From contig JAKAKJ010000047.1 in the NCBI GenBank assembly GCA_021824575.1, positions 1 to 62,693 on the forward strand: 62,693 nt of DNA, given 5' to 3'. The stretch comes from Chloroflexota bacterium (GTDB lineage Bacteria > Chloroflexota > Anaerolineae > Anaerolineales > Villigracilaceae). The notes below the pieces were generated by a model, which was not told the DNA's origin, did not search any database, and was given only the letters and a program-made list of their open reading frames with translations. This document shows positions 3,908 to 10,801 of the stretch, piece by piece; position 1 is the first letter of the stretch, and the number at the start of each line of letters is the position of its first letter. The position numbers and the translations under genes are program-made.

Positions 3908-4219
3908 ATGAAAACAATTTGGAAATGGATTCTCGGCATAATAGCCGCTGTTTTGGTGATCGGCATTCTGGCCCTTCCATTTTTGATGCGCCTGTTCGTC
4001 CCGTACGGCAGCTATGGCTTTATGGCCGATCGCTTTGGAGATATGCCAATGCGCGGCGGCTTCGGCGGTTACACGCCCATGGTATATGGAGGCTTCGGTT
4101 TTGGAATCGGATCCATCTTTGGCGGGCTGATCCAATTGGGCGTGCTGGTTTTGATCGTGCTGGGCATCATCTGGCTGGTCAGAGCCATTGGCAGGCAAAG
4201 TACCCCCAAAAACAATTAG
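3908..4219 (+). CDS. small two-helix membrane protein, Gly-rich loop
   Basis: This 103-residue protein has two hydrophobic helices, about residues 6-30 and 72-93, joined by a loop rich in Gly, Tyr, Phe and Met (for example RGGFGGYTPMVYGGFGFG). A ribosome binding site (AAAGGAG, 8 bases before the ATG) supports the start. The short tail is basic. I know no function for it; such proteins are common next to unrelated genes in this phylum. It precedes ligA on the same strand but appears to be a separate transcription unit. Confidence 0.65.
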   Translation: MKTIWKWILGIIAAVLVIGILALPFLMRLFVPYGSYGFMADRFGDMPMRGGFGGYTPMVYGGFGFGIGSIFGGLIQLGVLVLIVLGIIWLVRAIGRQSTPKNN

Positions 4220-4264: not shown

Positions 4265-6367
<2,103 letters not shown>

Positions 6368-6405
6368 ATAATGAACAATGGGACTATGCTATACTTTGAA
6401 TAGAT

Positions 6406-6684
6406 ATGCCCAACATCGAACCCATTCATGATTTTGTCTTTACCGACCATGCGCTAACCGAAATGGCGCGGCGCAATATCAGCAGAGAAGATGTCAGAAA
6501 AGTATTGGCAACGCCTGAACAGATGGAACTGATTCGAGAAGGACGAACAGTGTATCAATCTCGATTAGAAATGGGGGAACCGCTAAAAATTTATATTCTA
6601 CGCGTCTTTGTGGATATTGACCGCAAGCCGCCTCATATCGTAACTGTTTACCGGACCAGCAAGATCGAAAAGTATTGGAGATAA
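6406..6684 (+). CDS. DUF4258 family protein
   Basis: This 92-residue protein fits the DUF4258 family, shown by FTDHALTEMARRNISREDV near the N-terminus and a strand-rich C-terminal half ending in VTVYRTSKIEKYW. The family has a small alpha/beta fold like RelE/BrnT-type toxins, but its activity is not established. It lies 3 bp upstream of a DUF2283 gene, forming a two-gene unit. A TATACT box 10 bp before the ATG may be its promoter. The pair separates ligA from a diverged duplicate of its 3' end, which argues that the pair was inserted. Confidence 0.8.
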   Translation: MPNIEPIHDFVFTDHALTEMARRNISREDVRKVLATPEQMELIREGRTVYQSRLEMGEPLKIYILRVFVDIDRKPPHIVTVYRTSKIEKYWR

Positions 6685-6687
6685 ACC

Positions 6688-6894
6688 ATGAAAGTCATTT
6701 ATGATCGCGAGACGGATACTCTTACTATTATTTTCGCCGAGGCCCCCGTTGTGGAAAGCGACGAGGACAAGCCGGGCGTGATCTTGGATTATGACAATAA
6801 AGGCAATCTCGTTTCGCTGGAAATAATGGATGCCTCGCGGCGAGTCACTGTGCCTAGCAAAATAGAATATCAGGTGTCGCCAACAGCCGGATAA
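6688..6894 (+). CDS. DUF2283 family protein
   Basis: This 68-residue protein matches DUF2283: the start MKVIYDRETDTLTIIF, then GVILDYDNKGNLVSLEIMDAS. It is small and acidic, and the family is often encoded next to DUF4258 proteins. By analogy with toxin-antitoxin pairs it may be the partner or antidote of the upstream protein; this is inference. It starts 3 bp after the upstream stop codon, so the two are probably co-translated. Confidence 0.8.
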   Translation: MKVIYDRETDTLTIIFAEAPVVESDEDKPGVILDYDNKGNLVSLEIMDASRRVTVPSKIEYQVSPTAG

Positions 6895-6898
6895 TTAA

Positions 6899-6958
6899 TT
6901 GCCGCTGGGCGTGAAGATTATTGGAGAAGAAGAATTGAGAAAGTTGGTTGGTAAATAA
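6899..6958 (+). pseudogene. detached copy of the ligA 3' end
   Basis: The frame from 6899 reads LPLGVKIIGEEELRKLVGK and then a stop. It aligns with the end of Lig[19 protein letters not shown] and stop (6310-6367). It has no start codon and follows the DUF4258/DUF2283 pair by 4 bases. The simplest reading is that the pair arrived with, or displaced, a ligA tail, so that one tail now completes the gene and the other is a relic. Confidence 0.75.
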
Positions 6959-6960
6959 CT

Positions 6961-6995
6961 CAAAACTTCGAGTTCTTCAAGAACTCAGAGTTTTG
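6961..6995. terminator. hairpin between ligA relic and reverse transcriptase
   Basis: CAAAACTTCGAGTTCTT (6961-6977) pairs with AAGAACTCAGAGTTTTG (6979-6995) with two mismatches. It lies directly after the reverse transcriptase stop on the minus strand. A-rich and T-rich flanks would let it act in both directions. Confidence 0.6.
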
Positions 6996-6999
6996 TTTG

Positions 7000-8286
7000 C
7001 TATACATTTTTGTTTTCGCGTTTCGACCAATATTTAGAAAATAGCTTTCCTTCTTTCCTTAAGTTCCCTCTTACTACATCTAAATGCCAATGAATTGATT
7101 TTATACCAGAGTTTAGCCTTTGCTCTTTACTTAAGAATTTTGGTTTGAGTTTCCAGCCAAAATTCTTCAATCCAATCCAAAGAACTTTGCCAACTTCATT
7201 GTCAATTTCATTCATGTAGTTTTCGTTGAGATCGCAGAAGCCATAAGCAGCTACCCATCCCTCTAGTAAATTGTTGATGGAATTAAGAAGTTCTCTAACG
7301 TGTCGGGAGTTTTTATTTATACTGGATAGCTTGTTAGAGAGTTTTATTCGTTTTTCAGGGTCGGGCCATATACGCATCCCATTAAATTGAATTCCTAAAA
7401 AATTTATGGTAGTTTGAGAAACCTTTACAATTCGCGTCTTTGCCTGTTTATCAGTGTCTGATCTTGGGTGTAGCTTTAGATTTAGGTCATCCTCCAGAAT
7501 TTTTTTAGCGAGGTTGTAGGCATTCTCGGCTTCTCCCATAGTCTTGCACATGATAATAAAGTCATCCGCATAACGAATTAATTGAAAATTTCCTCTGAGC
7601 ATTGATTGATCAAGCTCAGAAAGGTAAATGTTTGAAAACAAAGGGGATAAATAACCTCCTTGTGGAATGCCAACCGAACTTTCAGGGTATAACTCAAAAT
7701 CATCGTCGAGTAGCTCGTTTTTATTGCCAATTTCCATCTTGAAAGCCCCCTCGATCAATTGATGAATAGTAGTATCTGGTAGATTGGGAAATACCATTTC
7801 GTTAAGTAATTTATTTAAATCCACCGTATCAAAAAATTTTTCTATATCTGCTTCAAGAACTATATGATAGCCATCGTTATGAAGCTTCAACATTCTTGCA
7901 ATTGCAGTGCGTACACCTTTTTTTCGCAGATATGCATGGCTTGCTGTGTTGTTTAGAGAGAACTTTATCTCAAGGTATTTTTCTAATACCCTAGTGATCG
8001 CTCTTTGAACAACTCTATCGCGTACATCAGCAATCTTTAATGGTCGCTTTTTCCCGTTTTTCTTCTTGATGGTCACTGCTCGGACGTTTCCAAATCTGTA
8101 ATTTCCTGATAGCAATTCATTTCTTATGACTTCTAAATTTGATTTTGAATTTGCGCGAAATTCTTCTATTGTTTGCTGAGACATACCATGAGAAAATGGC
8201 CTGGCAAATCGACTTATGTCATGCCAAGCCATCTCAAGATTTTTTCGTGTTGCAACTTTTCCGAGCAAATTTTTTGGGGCAGCCAT
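7000..8286 (-). CDS. reverse transcriptase, group II intron-like, stand-alone
   Basis: This 428-residue protein has all core reverse transcriptase motifs: RPLKIADVRDRVVQRAI (about 81-97), motif A EADIEKFFD with D147, the GIPQGGYLSPLFSNIYL block (206-222), the active-site YADD (239-242) and FLGIQF (about 295-300). A maturase-like thumb (LEGWVAAYGF) follows. There is no HNH endonuclease domain and no room downstream for intron domains V/VI: only 41 bp separate the stop from the ligA relic. It therefore looks like a domesticated or defence-type group II-like enzyme rather than an intron. Codon use is much more AT-rich than that of its neighbours, pointing to transfer. It starts 11 bp after a small reading frame, and two 117-bp repeats lie upstream on the same transcript. 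The LSPLFSN block does not match diversity-generating enzymes. Confidence 0.9.
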   Translation of the reverse strand: MAAPKNLLGKVATRKNLEMAWHDISRFARPFSHGMSQQTIEEFRANSKSNLEVIRNELLSGNYRFGNVRAVTIKKKNGKKRPLKIADVRDRVVQRAITRVLEKYLEIKFSLNNTASHAYLRKKGVRTAIARMLKLHNDGYHIVLEADIEKFFDTVDLNKLLNEMVFPNLPDTTIHQLIEGAFKMEIGNKNELLDDDFELYPESSVGIPQGGYLSPLFSNIYLSELDQSMLRGNFQLIRYADDFIIMCKTMGEAENAYNLAKKILEDDLNLKLHPRSDTDKQAKTRIVKVSQTTINFLGIQFNGMRIWPDPEKRIKLSNKLSSINKNSRHVRELLNSINNLLEGWVAAYGFCDLNENYMNEIDNEVGKVLWIGLKNFGWKLKPKFLSKEQRLNSGIKSIHWHLDVVRGNLRKEGKLFSKYWSKRENKNV

Positions 8287-8297
8287 AAAGCGCTTTT

Positions 8298-8555
8298 TTA
8301 TTGTCTTTGAGCGCTATTCGAACACTTATTAAGGTGTGCAGTGTGTGCGCTCAAAGCAATAAGCATTTTGTTAATCAGTGCTCGGGTCATCATCACGAGT
8401 AACGTGATAAGCTGGATACCGCAAGCAATGAGAAACTTGGCGTTGGTTCGCTTGGCAGTGGTTGGTGCAAGGTGTTCACTGCTAATTTCACTGAACTCGG
8501 ATTTCTCTTCGGCGTTCAAAATGATTGCGAGCCGCCAGTCAATAGTGATTGTCAT
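8298..8555 (-). CDS. small protein upstream of the reverse transcriptase
   Basis: A frame of 85 residues starts at an ATG (8555) with a good ribosome binding site (AGGAGA, about 6 bases before it) and ends 11 bp before the reverse transcriptase start. The middle (FLIACGIQLITLLVMMTRALI) is hydrophobic and could be one membrane helix. Residues about 24-62 are encoded by copy 1 of the 117-bp repeat, so part of this frame may be RNA sequence that happens to be open. I know no homologue. It could be a real accessory protein, a leader peptide, or part of a structured RNA. Confidence 0.4.
   Translation of the reverse strand: MTITIDWRLAIILNAEEKSEFSEISSEHLAPTTAKRTNAKFLIACGIQLITLLVMMTRALINKMLIALSAHTAHLNKCSNSAQRQ
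8370..8486 (-). repeat. 117-bp direct repeat, copy 1
   Basis: This stretch is identical to 8723-8839 except for one base (8445 G versus 8798 C). The copies are 353 bp apart and both lie upstream of the reverse transcriptase in the same orientation. Read on the minus strand, each contains the stem ATCACG/CGTGAT with loop TTACT, and GCAGTG/CACTGC arms, so it can fold as RNA. Confidence 0.95.
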
Positions 8556-8722
8556 AACTCGTCTCCTGTTATCATATATCACATTTTTTCATTGTGACAA
8601 GAGGGCGCGAAAGACTTTTCACTACCCGCCCCGCCGCCCGGCTCGTTATAAATCCTTATCTCCATCGTGCTCGAAAAGGAAGTACCTACACTGCCCACGA
8701 TGGGAAAAGTAGAGCCAGACGG
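8556..8722 (-). ncRNA. possible structured RNA upstream of the reverse transcriptase
   Basis: No convincing gene fits between the two repeats apart from the start of the small frame. On the minus strand the region has a G-rich run (GGGCGGCGGGGCGGG) that can pair with GCGCCC further on, and a TCACA/TGTGA hairpin around an A-rich loop just before the small frame. With the flanking repeats it could form a long non-coding RNA serving as template or primer for the enzyme. A 55-codon frame (MMTRALINPSG...) also runs through here without a ribosome binding site. Confidence 0.35.
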
Positions 8723-8839
8723 GTTAATCAGTGCTCGGGTCATCATCACGAGTAACGTGATAAGCTGGATACCGCAAGCAATGAGAAACTTGGCGTTCGT
8801 TCGCTTGGCAGTGGTTGGTGCAAGGTGTTCACTGCTAAT
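8723..8839 (-). repeat. 117-bp direct repeat, copy 2
   Basis: This copy lies only about 7 bp after the predicted transcription start of the reverse transcriptase unit, so it would form the 5' end of the RNA. See copy 1 for the structure. The single difference from copy 1 is a C/G change, not an adenine change. Confidence 0.95.
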
Positions 8840-8852
8840 GAACGTTAGTTCT

Positions 8853-8880
8853 ATTATACCTTAATGCAAATGACTGTCTA
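8853..8880 (-). promoter_or_regulatory. promoter of the repeat/reverse transcriptase unit
   Basis: On the minus strand, TAGACA (8875-8880) and a perfect TATAAT (8853-8858) are separated by 16 bp. Transcription would start near 8846, just before copy 2 of the 117-bp repeat, about 560 bp upstream of the reverse transcriptase start. So long a leader supports an RNA function. Confidence 0.65.
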
Positions 8881-8955
8881 TAAGAATTTTATAAATATTT
8901 TCTCCATCAAGGCCCTGACAATGAATAGGGACTACTTGGAAAAAATAAACCTTTG

Positions 8956-8961
8956 TATAAT
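8956..8961 (+). promoter_or_regulatory. -10 box upstream of the F420-type reductase
   Basis: TATAAT lies 21 bp before the ATG at 8983, followed by the ribosome binding site GGAG. A -35 hexamer is not clear. Confidence 0.4.
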
Positions 8962-8982
8962 CAACTGAATGGAGAAAACACT

Positions 8983-9462
8983 ATGAAAGATTTCTTTATT
9001 CGAATTTTTATGTCCATCAACTCCTTCTTCCTCCGCCTCAGCCGCGGACGGATTGGAAGCAAGCTAGGAACGCAAACGGTTTTGATTCTGCACACGACCG
9101 GACGTAAATCGGGGCAGGATCGTGCCATCCCGATTGCGTATTTCGATTATGAAGGCAAATATCTGATCGTCGCCTCGAATTGGGGAAAAGACAAGAACGC
9201 GGAATGGTATTTGAATTTGAAGAAACAGCCGCGCGCCGCGCTAGAGGTCAAAGGGAAAAGAATCGAAGTCCAGAGCCGCGAAGCGCAGGGCGAGGAATAT
9301 GATCGTTTGTGGAAATTCGCGACTGAGAAGCATCCGCCGTATTTGGATTACCAGAAGATGACGACGCGTCACATTCCTATCATGGTGTTTGAACCTGTTG
9401 TCATTGCGAGCGATGGTCGAGTAGCGAAGCGTATCGAGACCGAGCGTGGCAATCTCAACTAG
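8983..9462 (+). CDS. deazaflavin (F420)-type nitroreductase family protein
   Basis: The 159-residue protein belongs to the split beta-barrel nitroreductase/quinone reductase family related to Ddn. Family members use F420H2 or a flavin to reduce quinones or nitro compounds. The signature VLILHTTGRKSGQDRAIPI (about 34-52) and the segment VASNWGKDKNAEWYLNLKKQP are typical. The ATG at 8983 has a GGAG site. The last 20 or so codons, including the stop, lie in a repeat element (9399-9530), so the native C-terminus was probably replaced. It is monocistronic. Confidence 0.85.
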   Translation: MKDFFIRIFMSINSFFLRLSRGRIGSKLGTQTVLILHTTGRKSGQDRAIPIAYFDYEGKYLIVASNWGKDKNAEWYLNLKKQPRAALEVKGKRIEVQSREAQGEEYDRLWKFATEKHPPYLDYQKMTTRHIPIMVFEPVVIASDGRVAKRIETERGNLN

Positions 9463-9530
9463 CCATCAAATACTCTGTTCTATGAAAATATAAGATTGCC
9501 ACGTCGGCCTACGGCCTCCTCGCAATGACA
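9399..9530. repeat. 132-bp element with 12-bp terminal inverted repeats
   Basis: The element starts TGTCATTGCGAG (9399-9410) and ends with the complement CTCGCAATGACA (9519-9530). The ends equal the arms of the hairpin at 3036-3075. Inside are TGGCAATCTC and AGATTGCCA arms. It resembles a small non-autonomous palindromic element and supplies the end of the preceding gene. Confidence 0.6.
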
Positions 9531-9595
9531 TCGAACACGTTTGACAGTTCATCTTCAAAAGGCTAAACTTGGTCAATCCTTTTCAGGAGTTGATC

Positions 9596-10801
9596 ATGGA
9601 TTTCAATACAGATGATGCAGTCTCGCGCCGCATCAAAGCGTTCACCGACCGCGTCTCGATGCTCAAAGAGAACGATCTATATTTCTATAACCAGCCTATC
9701 GAGGAAATCCGCGGCGGGGCAAAGGTTCTGGTTCATGGCCGCGAAATGGGGATGTATGCGTCGTATGGCTACCTCGGACTGCTCGGCCATCCGCGAATCA
9801 ATGAGGCCTCGCGCAAAGCGATTGATAAATTTGGAACGGGGACGAACGGCGTTCGCACATTGGCAGGCACGCTGACCCTCCATGATGAACTCGAAGAGAC
9901 GATCGCGAATTTTAAACATGCCGAAGCCGCGGTGACGTTTACATCGGGATATGTCACCAATCTGACCGTCATCTCCACGTTGATGGGACGCGGCGATTAT
10001 GTTCTATCCGATAAATTGAATCACGCTTCCATCGTGGACGGATGCCTGATGTCGGGCGCAGAATTCCGCCGATTCAAACACAATGACATGGATGATCTGG
10101 AGCACCGGCTTGAACAAATTCCTTCCGGTGTCTCGAAGCTGGTCATTGCCGACGCGGTCTTCTCGATGGACGGCGATGTGATTGATCTTCCGAAAGTGGT
10201 CGAGATTTGCAAAAAGCATGGCGCGTATCTGATGATGGACGAGGCTCATTCCGTCGGCGTGTTGGGCAAAACGGGGCGCGGCATCGAAGAGCATTTTGGT
10301 CTCGATGATGTGGTTGACATTAAGATGGGAACGTTGAGCAAGACGATCCCGTCCGTGGGCGGCTATGTGGCCGGTAAAAAGGATTTGATCAATTATCTTC
10401 GTCACGCCAGCCGCGCATATATTTTTTCCGCGGCGCTTCCGCCCGCGCAGGCTGCCGCAGCGAACGAAGCTTTCAAAGTCATCCTCGATGAGCCGTGGCG
10501 CGTCGAGAAACTTCGCCGCAATGGCGAATTATTCATCAACGGACTCAAATCCGCGGGCTTCGATACGATGCTGACCACAACCGCCATTGTCCCGGTGCTG
10601 TGTGGTTCTGATGAACAAGCCTTTGCGATGACGCGTGAAGCGCAGCATCACGATGTATTTGTTTTGCCGGTTGTTTCGCCTGCTGTCCCCGAAGGACAGG
10701 CGCGTCTGCGCGCCACGGTCACAGCCGCGCATGAGCCGGGCGAGATCGAACGCGCCATGGATGTCATCGCTACTGCCGGGAAAAAGATCGGGATTATCTA
10801 A
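9596..10801 (+). CDS. alpha-oxoamine synthase family PLP enzyme
   Basis: This 401-residue PLP-dependent enzyme is of the 2-amino-3-ketobutyrate CoA ligase / 8-amino-7-oxononanoate synthase / serine palmitoyltransferase family. These enzymes condense an amino acid with an acyl-CoA, with loss of CO2 in most cases. Landmarks are YASYGYLGLLGHPR, GTGTNGVRTLAGTLTLHDELE, the SDKLNHASIVDG block, DEAHSVGVLGKTGRG, and MGTLSKTIPSVGGY with the PLP lysine. The ATG at 9596 follows CAGGAG. Which substrate is used cannot be told from sequence; the gene stands alone, with no biotin or threonine-catabolism neighbours. Confidence 0.88.
   Translation: MDFNTDDAVSRRIKAFTDRVSMLKENDLYFYNQPIEEIRGGAKVLVHGREMGMYASYGYLGLLGHPRINEASRKAIDKFGTGTNGVRTLAGTLTLHDELEETIANFKHAEAAVTFTSGYVTNLTVISTLMGRGDYVLSDKLNHASIVDGCLMSGAEFRRFKHNDMDDLEHRLEQIPSGVSKLVIADAVFSMDGDVIDLPKVVEICKKHGAYLMMDEAHSVGVLGKTGRGIEEHFGLDDVVDIKMGTLSKTIPSVGGYVAGKKDLINYLRHASRAYIFSAALPPAQAAAANEAFKVILDEPWRVEKLRRNGELFINGLKSAGFDTMLTTTAIVPVLCGSDEQAFAMTREAQHHDVFVLPVVSPAVPEGQARLRATVTAAHEPGEIERAMDVIATAGKKIGII

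Follow-up and report, generated by a model that had tools for sequence, protein, structure and literature searches.

Bacterial reverse transcriptases (RTs) with RNA templates of their own are a proven source of new immune mechanisms and of tools. The defence-associated reverse transcriptases (DRTs) DRT2, DRT9 and DRT10 are known to be templated by non-coding RNA (ncRNA), and a description of DRT2 reports that the strand opposite the ncRNA encodes its product, Neo (PMC11100668). Domesticated group II-like RTs are known as well, and two reports give a YIDD active site as distinctive of the G2L4 group (PMC4244168, PMC12337344). In diversity-generating retroelements (DGRs), according to PMC3521204, the RT carries (I/V/L)GxxxSQ in domain 4, template repeat (TR) and variable repeat (VR) measure ~120 bp, and a hairpin follows the VR in some systems. 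Other papers drawn on are PMC12632851, PMC8934634 and PMC13174585. The myRT classes include G2L, G2Lb and G2Lc. Here we describe an RT gene and its leader in a 62,693-nt stretch of DNA from a Chloroflexota bacterium (contig JAKAKJ010000047.1, assembly GCA_021824575.1), called the window below. The leader holds two near-identical repeats, one of them inside a small open reading frame (ORF), and a stem-loop, and this arrangement recurs in front of related RTs. The tested features exclude a group II intron, a DGR, G2L4 and DRT2. What appears to be new is the combination; single parts have parallels in DRT2/DRT9/DRT10, DGRs and domesticated group II-like RTs. No paper describing such a leader was found in the open-licence literature.

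Near-identical repeats in a shared leader

The family considered here has nine loci: the window and its eight relatives L004, L005, L006/L038 (one gene), L039, L040, L041, L042 and L103. Two near-exact repeats lie upstream of the RT in seven of them (window, L004, L005, L038, L040, L041 and L103), and the window shares one layout with six of its eight relatives: promoter-like site, repeat A, stem-loop, second promoter-like site, repeat B, RT. The original prediction had seen two near-identical 117-bp repeats in the window and had supposed a leader RNA belonging to the RT. The former is confirmed and the latter supported, through the layout before six relatives and the stem-loop match reported below. 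In the window, where the unit is read on the minus strand, the repeats are direct, 117 nt each, with 1 mismatch (116/117 identical). Copy A (8723–8839) is the proposed template and the 5′ part of a proposed ncRNA, and copy B (8370–8486) is a segment of the small ORF.

Across the family the repeats are 99–117 nt long and start 310–449 nt apart. Five lengths are multiples of 3 (117, 99, 111, 108 and 99) and the other two are 100 and 107, the edges, and hence the lengths, being uncertain by one or two bases. The two copies differ at 1/117, 0/99, 1/100, 0/107, 0/108 and 0/99 positions in six loci, a total of 2/630; in L038 an assembly gap interrupts copy B, flanked by two exact 55-nt blocks. The mismatch of L005 falls at an A of copy A, that of the window does not. 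Between loci the repeats are 51–84% identical (closest pair L040/L041, 84%), and 14 of 21 pairs exceed the shuffled mean of 57–61% by at most 5 points. Since the copies are 99–100% alike within a locus while their letters change between lineages, the alignments indicate concerted evolution. No exact direct repeat of at least 18 nt was present within 700 nt upstream of any of 39 other RT loci, each with at least 400 nt of upstream sequence (longest, 17 nt). Elsewhere in the 3.64-Mb genome the leader was matched by just three stretches of 23–26 nt (E 0.09–0.16).

The edges of copy A are regular in all seven loci: it begins 3–13 nt past a promoter box (the −10 box in the window, a Bacteroidota-type −7 box in the relatives, placed there by eye) and ends 2–19 nt ahead of the stem-loop, SL-X. 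Such edges would be expected of a copy templated by an RNA that begins at promoter-like site P1, the copy running from the scaffold of that RNA to its 5′ end. In the window P1 lies at 8853–8880 (minus strand), and repeat A starts 13 nt past its TATAAT. A promoter upstream had been predicted here; the motif stands (TAGACA-16-TATAAT, 11/12), while the number of promoter-like sites in the region, five, is at the shuffle level of 4.6.

Right upstream of copy B, L005 has a further copy, C, which is 65% identical and forms an in-frame tandem with B. It is the only older copy that was found (0/300 shuffles as good; the 20 other comparisons gave p of at least 0.08). Compared by eye with the repeat (R), copy C is changed at all four kinds of base, and thus no A-specific mutagenesis is seen. 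It looks like an older write event, and a tandem duplication would look alike.

Stem-loop and loop complementarity

SL-X (8662–8703, minus strand) has an 8-bp stem, CCATCGTG/CACGATGG, with zero mismatches in the window, and a 26-nt loop. RNAalifold recovered the eight-pair stem unprompted from alignment A3, which holds six loci and excludes the window. Four of the eight pairs are changed on both sides, and 85.4% of cells are paired, against 31–60% in slid versions. Model R1, made from A3 only, found its best match in the 62.7-kb window at 8621–8703 (minus strand), over its full length, with E 0.011, the next being 1.9; these E-values are rough, coming from short calibrations. The same model gave one weak match (E 2.5) in 33 other loci, L042 and L039 included. 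Alignment A4, with the window stem out of register, was not used.

Part of the R1 match is the conserved tail Y of the proposed RNA (8621–8661, minus strand), where the relatives show no signal by codon position. Over the first 66 columns of the block behind SL-X, the mean pairwise difference is 0.44, 0.31 and 0.42 at first, second and third codon positions. Coding was rejected for this block because the codon signal is absent, although each of the six loci has an open frame. Relative to shuffles, the whole window leader folds better than 100/100 (z −5.06), and the proposed RNA has z from −3.3 to −3.6 in the window, L041 and L103, −1.4 in L040 and −1.55 in L038.

The SL-X loop contains a segment, X1 (GCAGTGT, 8688–8694, minus strand), complementary to X1′ (ACACTGC, 8338–8344, minus strand), which lies behind copy B, inside a predicted hairpin before the RT start. 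The complementarity spans 7 bp in the window and in L103, 10 in L004, L040 and L041, and 11 in L005 and L038. Shuffles as good number, of 2000, 104 for the window, 2 for L004, 0 for L005, 2 for L038, 1 for L040, 3 for L041 and 143 for L103. By group the letters of X1 are GCAGTGT, TTGCAGGTT, TTTAGCAGAC and AACCAGC, and X1′ changes along; loci of one group are not independent in this comparison. By eye, small hairpins are also seen behind X1′.

Coding content of the repeat

Two features of the window go beyond the original prediction: a second promoter-like site, P2 (8600–8571, minus strand; TTGTCA-18-TATGAT, 10/12), and a small ORF running through repeat B (8298–8555, minus strand). P2 stands very near the Shine-Dalgarno sequence of the ORF, which consists of AGGAG and then ATG, 85 aa, and a stop shortly before the RT start. 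Its hydrophobic segment falls within repeat B, whose part of the ORF reads TAKRTNAKFLIACGIQLITLLVMMTRALIN; the small ORF has no Pfam match. Copy A of the window offers no start codon ahead of the hydrophobic segment.

With the frame set by the position of a conserved ATGG, the repeat is stop-free over its full length in 7/7 loci and, to varying degree, hydrophobic downstream of that codon. The fraction of shuffles both open and equally hydrophobic is 0 in the window and L041, 0.001 in L040, 0.016 in L038, 0.04 in L004, 0.05 in L103 and 0.07 in L005. Our reading is that copy B belongs to a gene for a small membrane protein and copy A to an ncRNA.

By eye, the repeat-less L042 retains a hydrophobic frame ahead of its RT. 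The short ORF before repeat B begins, after the second promoter-like site, one frame off the repeat frame in L004, L005, L038, L040 and L103, by eye always −1, with an AAAAAAC run near its start; slippage could join the two frames. The corresponding ORFs of the window and L041 start in the frame of repeat B.

The reverse transcriptase

The RT gene (7000–8286, minus strand) encodes a group II-like enzyme of 428 aa with no recognised endonuclease domain, as judged from the ORF, Pfam, NCBIfam, the alignment and an AlphaFold model. The original prediction of an RT with all catalytic motifs is borne out: the ORF is intact, D147 and YADD (239–242) do not vary when nine other RTs are aligned with it, and RVT_1 is the sole Pfam domain. 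The best NCBIfam model is TIGR04416 (group II RT/maturase), at 240.5 bits against a cutoff of 300. Seven relatives score 189–250 bits, every one below the cutoff, in a scan of eight of the nine family members that left out the split L038 gene. Six of eight comparison RTs reach 372–458 bits, and two, a short ORF and L008, ~270. A relation to DRT2, earlier suggested by analogy, is not supported by the Drt2 model NF041746 (68.3 bits, cutoff 390), and the retron St85 model NF038233 gives 55.8 bits (cutoff 235). PADLOC ranks a generic RT model at 225 bits, a Cas1-RT model at 132.8 (its RT part) and UG17/DRT10 at 131.8; Drt9 scores 87 and the Drt2 models 68–72 bits.

A quickly built maximum-likelihood tree that samples 49 RTs unites eight family members in one clade on a long stem (Shimodaira–Hasegawa-like approximate likelihood-ratio support, SH-aLRT, 99). 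The tree contains no verified DRT, retron, CRISPR or G2L4 references, and the placement is relative to the sampled RTs only. The AlphaFold model has a pLDDT of 81, with residues 189–202 and 394–428 below 50. Its closest structures in the PDB are the GsI-IIC RT and G2L4 RT, G2L4 chain 9d4s_A giving TM-scores of 0.69 and 0.72. The window RT may already carry a class label, G2L, G2Lb or G2Lc of myRT.

Distribution of the family

Close relatives of the window RT are rare. Six exact peptide patterns run against genome contigs gave eight loci, three of them family members: L004, a Flavipsychrobacter metagenome-assembled genome (MAG) with an RT 41% identical to that of the window; L005, a Mucilaginibacter MAG (38%); and L006 (48% over part), whose gene has its N-terminal part and leader on contig L038. 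The L006/L038 record is a MAG labelled Azovibrio restrictus, but in its RT gene, its leader and the style of its promoter it matches the Bacteroidota loci; mis-binning is possible. Genome searches added L039 (2/396 genomes with a match, one being that of L004), L040, L041 and L042 (4/350, one being that of L005) and L103 (2/295, one again that of L005). Other searches returned known members only: 1/298 in the class of the window, which was the window itself, 1/87, 2/231 and 1/183. Within the bacterial family of the window, 81/152 genomes had some RT match, the best after the window having E 2.7e-34 and 35% identity.

No relative turned up when viral sequences were scanned with the proteins of the window, L004 and L041; a viral scan with alignment A1 gave 59 relatives, 24–33% identical save for three 29-residue matches at 52%. 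Identity was at most 35.5% among the matches listed for plasmids and phages. Carriage on a phage or plasmid was rejected, as neither the viral scans nor the matches listed for plasmids and phages included a close relative. One more locus, L009 (37% identity over residues 70–298, at a contig end), was kept out of the tree and lacks repeats of at least 20 nt. Apart from these, region 1–700 of L007 drew notice for short repeats ~74–76 bp apart, a CRISPR-like spacing, near a 966-aa RT-bearing ORF.

Genomic setting and neighbouring genes

The guanine-plus-cytosine content is 36–38% in the RT gene, 41–46% in the leader and ~50% in the surroundings. In G045, a genome of the same genus, only 13 nt separate the sequence matching the ligA end from that matching the F420-reductase start, and so window 6357–8982, RT unit included, is absent from G045. 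G046 has different DNA between ligA and the F420-reductase gene, and in G047 the region is spread over contigs. We infer that the window genome gained the unit rather than that G045 lost it. The transfer proposed earlier from AT-rich composition is supported by composition together with the G045 junction. A further element of the original prediction, a ligA relic next to the RT, fares worse: 6903–6952 resembles the end of G045's own ligA and for this reason looks like the native ligA end. Behind the RT gene lies a terminator-like hairpin (6970–6986, no strand assigned, found on the plus strand), one such hairpin being found where 1.5 were expected.

The absence of intron RNA from the locus, claimed at the outset, agrees with Rfam, which gave no group II match in the window at gathering thresholds. 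At E up to 5, segment 6900–8960 matched just RAGATH-8 (17.5 bits against a gathering threshold of 86.7; E 0.08) and one miRNA family (E 4.2), and the loci of six relatives showed no group II intron RNA at E up to 1. Rfam matched no retron RNA (msr-msd) in the window, its coverage of retrons being partial. Array-like repeats were absent from 5500–10500, and the three neighbour ORFs contained no cas genes by Pfam and had no PADLOC match.

The neighbour scan covered selected ORFs only. L005 adjoins AbiEii, DUF6577, resolvase and helix-turn-helix genes. In L040 a kinase-domain gene follows the RT, with a Fic gene 1.8 kb further, and a DUF5712 gene precedes it. The two repeat-less loci have a Shedu gene 1.6 kb away (L042) and an Mrr_cat gene before the RT (L039). 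In L004 an IS110 transposase gene follows the RT. Within L039 193–3323 the RT stands between the Mrr_cat gene and Pfam-negative ORFs that look TIR-like and CHAT-like by eye. A DUF805 RNA (RF03081, 68.6 bits) lies at 3974–4040 of L103, ~1.2 kb downstream of the RT gene.

Three other features of the window were noticed. A DUF4258/DUF2283 gene pair sits at the ligA 3′ end (6312–6952), where the ligA end occurs in two copies (74% alike). It looks like a small mobile cassette because G047, of the same genus, matches the pair on a different contig, C41. A dispersed repeat at 9399–9535, with inverted ends TGTCATTGCGAG/CTCGCAATGACA, has many short matches in three same-genus genomes. A tyrosine-recombinase-like ORF (1937–2953, by eye) overlaps a tRNA gene (2908–2982), resembling elements that integrate at tRNA genes.

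Discussion

We read the locus, tentatively and at somewhat under even chances, as a self-contained module made up of an RT, an RNA and a small protein, in which the RT copies R and the cDNA acts on the small-protein gene. The architecture (layout, copy identity, stem-loop homology, complementarities and open frames) is well supported by the comparison of loci; the function we infer. The P1 transcript would carry R at the 5′ end and the scaffold at the 3′ end. The RT would bind the scaffold and copy R from its inner edge to the 5′ end of the RNA, yielding a cDNA exactly antisense to the small-ORF mRNA. Loop X1 of the scaffold would pair with X1′ just behind R in that mRNA, or in the DNA, and bring the complex there. 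The cDNA could silence the small ORF or hold its product, and occasional writing of cDNA into copy B would keep A and B identical. The likeliest purpose would be a retron-like one, in which the cDNA or the complex restrains a toxic membrane peptide until a phage disturbs it. The module is perhaps for defence; the relatives L005, L040, L042 and L039 lie near defence-type genes.

Several points weigh against this proposal. Transcript, cDNA, protein and toxicity are all predicted from sequence. Antisense pairing alone tolerates mismatches and does not demand such identity between A and B, and the regular repeat edges would follow equally if selection acted just on the transcribed part. In the window P2 leaves hardly any space ahead of the Shine-Dalgarno sequence. 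In the six Bacteroidota-type loci copy A has an in-frame ATG and its frame continues beyond the repeat, so copy A could be translated there too. The X1/X1′ complementarity, taken singly, is near chance in the window and in L103, and in L004 and L005 the proposed RNA has no folding advantage over shuffles (z −0.2 and −0.3). The covariation of SL-X is weak by itself, 57/500 shuffles being equally good; the independent test with R1 is the stronger one. A defence family was absent from the ORFs tested in the window (3), L103 (2) and L038 (1), and the two tested in L041 are ABC-transporter-like. Homologues lacking the leader, named in the original prediction as contrary evidence, do exist: six of eight relatives keep it, while L042 and L039 have no repeats. 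In the tree both are nested within the clade, with the window RT basal; the simplest account is that they lost the repeats, on a fork supported at only SH-aLRT 83.

Other explanations can be offered for a repeat pair kept identical next to an RT. One, which we consider doubtful, is faithful retro-copying as in a DGR deprived of mutagenesis, with A as template repeat, B as target repeat, X1 recognising X1′, the RT writing A into B, and homing itself as the function. The RT is group II-like, and ribonucleoproteins of the group II lineage locate DNA through loop–exon pairing. The layout is TR/VR-like, with two ~120-bp repeats beside an RT, one of them in an ORF and a hairpin behind it. Repeat size and VR hairpin have counterparts in DGRs (PMC3521204), if the small hairpins seen by eye behind X1′ are counted, and the older copy C of L005 adjoins the fresh B on its upstream side, as though new copies were written beside X1′. 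Against this, copy C is explicable as plain tandem duplication, 2 mismatches in 630 leave no diversification, the RT motif is PQGxxxSP (PQGGYLSP in the window) and not the SQ form of DGRs, and the use of faithful copying is not evident. A DGR proper was ruled out on the near-identity of the repeats and this motif; the window unit also differs from DGRs in its lack of adenine mutagenesis, its group II-like RT and its guide-like loop.

Group II RTs are known to autoregulate through their leaders, and it is conceivable, though unlikely, that a duplicated leader is held identical by ordinary gene conversion at the DNA level while R serves as a shared RT-binding site: the RT mRNA would mimic the RNA partner of the enzyme and be repressed by it. 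Direct repeats 310–449 bp apart can convert; against this, the repeat edges respect the promoter box and the stem-loop in 7/7 loci, the frame through R is open in 7/7, and recombination between the repeats should often delete the unit. Gene assembly as in DRT2, with R copied into tandem repeats read as an endless protein, seems more unlikely still. It would suit an R that is stop-free in the sense frame in 7/7 loci and in some opposite-strand frame in 6/7 (not L005), that has a length divisible by 3 in 5/7, and that in L005 occurs as an in-frame tandem of two R-like units. However, edges and lengths carry the uncertainty of one or two bases given above, the conserved frame lies here on the RNA strand, unlike Neo, and the window RT falls outside the DRT2 family. 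A degenerate mobile group II intron whose RNA has decayed past recognition is very improbable: the closest RTs are those of group II introns, but Rfam finds no intron RNA, the eight scanned members stay at 189–250 bits, below the TIGR04416 cutoff that six of eight comparison RTs pass, and seven loci retain a different, shared leader. A group II intron remnant was ruled out on the missing intron RNA and the score below cutoff, and the window RT is set apart from mobile introns by the lack of domain V intron RNA and its 240.5 bits.

Set beside the described systems, the proposed module of RT, RNA and small protein resembles each in part. Like G2L4 and other group II-like RTs, the enzyme is free-standing and group II-derived, and G2L4 chains are among its best structural matches; it differs in having YADD instead of YIDD and a conserved leader with near-exact repeats, the G2L4 sequences lying outside the tree sample. 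With DRT2, DRT9 and DRT10 it would share an upstream ncRNA, predicted in the window, whereas its scores against UG17 (131.8 bits), Drt9 (87) and Drt2 (68–72) stay below that for group II. Unlike in DRT10, Pfam recognises no SLATT protein or gene in the small ORF or the three neighbour ORFs of the window, and a neighbouring ORF holds a second copy of R. Retrons would likewise combine an RT, an RNA template and a toxic effector, if our proposal is true; however, the window RT is not of retron type, and its template is duplicated in a gene.

Taken further, the locus may represent a new class of retroelement, a suggestion that we regard as more speculative than the module itself: a domesticated group II-like RT would faithfully copy the 5′ segment of a guide-bearing ncRNA, the copy being directed both into and against the identical stretch of a gene for a small membrane protein, with a loop that picks the target, one RNA acting as both template and guide, and a segment that controls a toxin. 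What the comparisons give is a group II-like RT clade tied, in seven genomes, to a leader whose template-like part near-exactly copies part of a neighbouring ORF. Should the RT indeed write the copy, the family would provide a faithful, loop-guided writer of RNA into DNA; should the ORF be silenced by the cDNA, the latter would act as an antitoxin made of antisense DNA.

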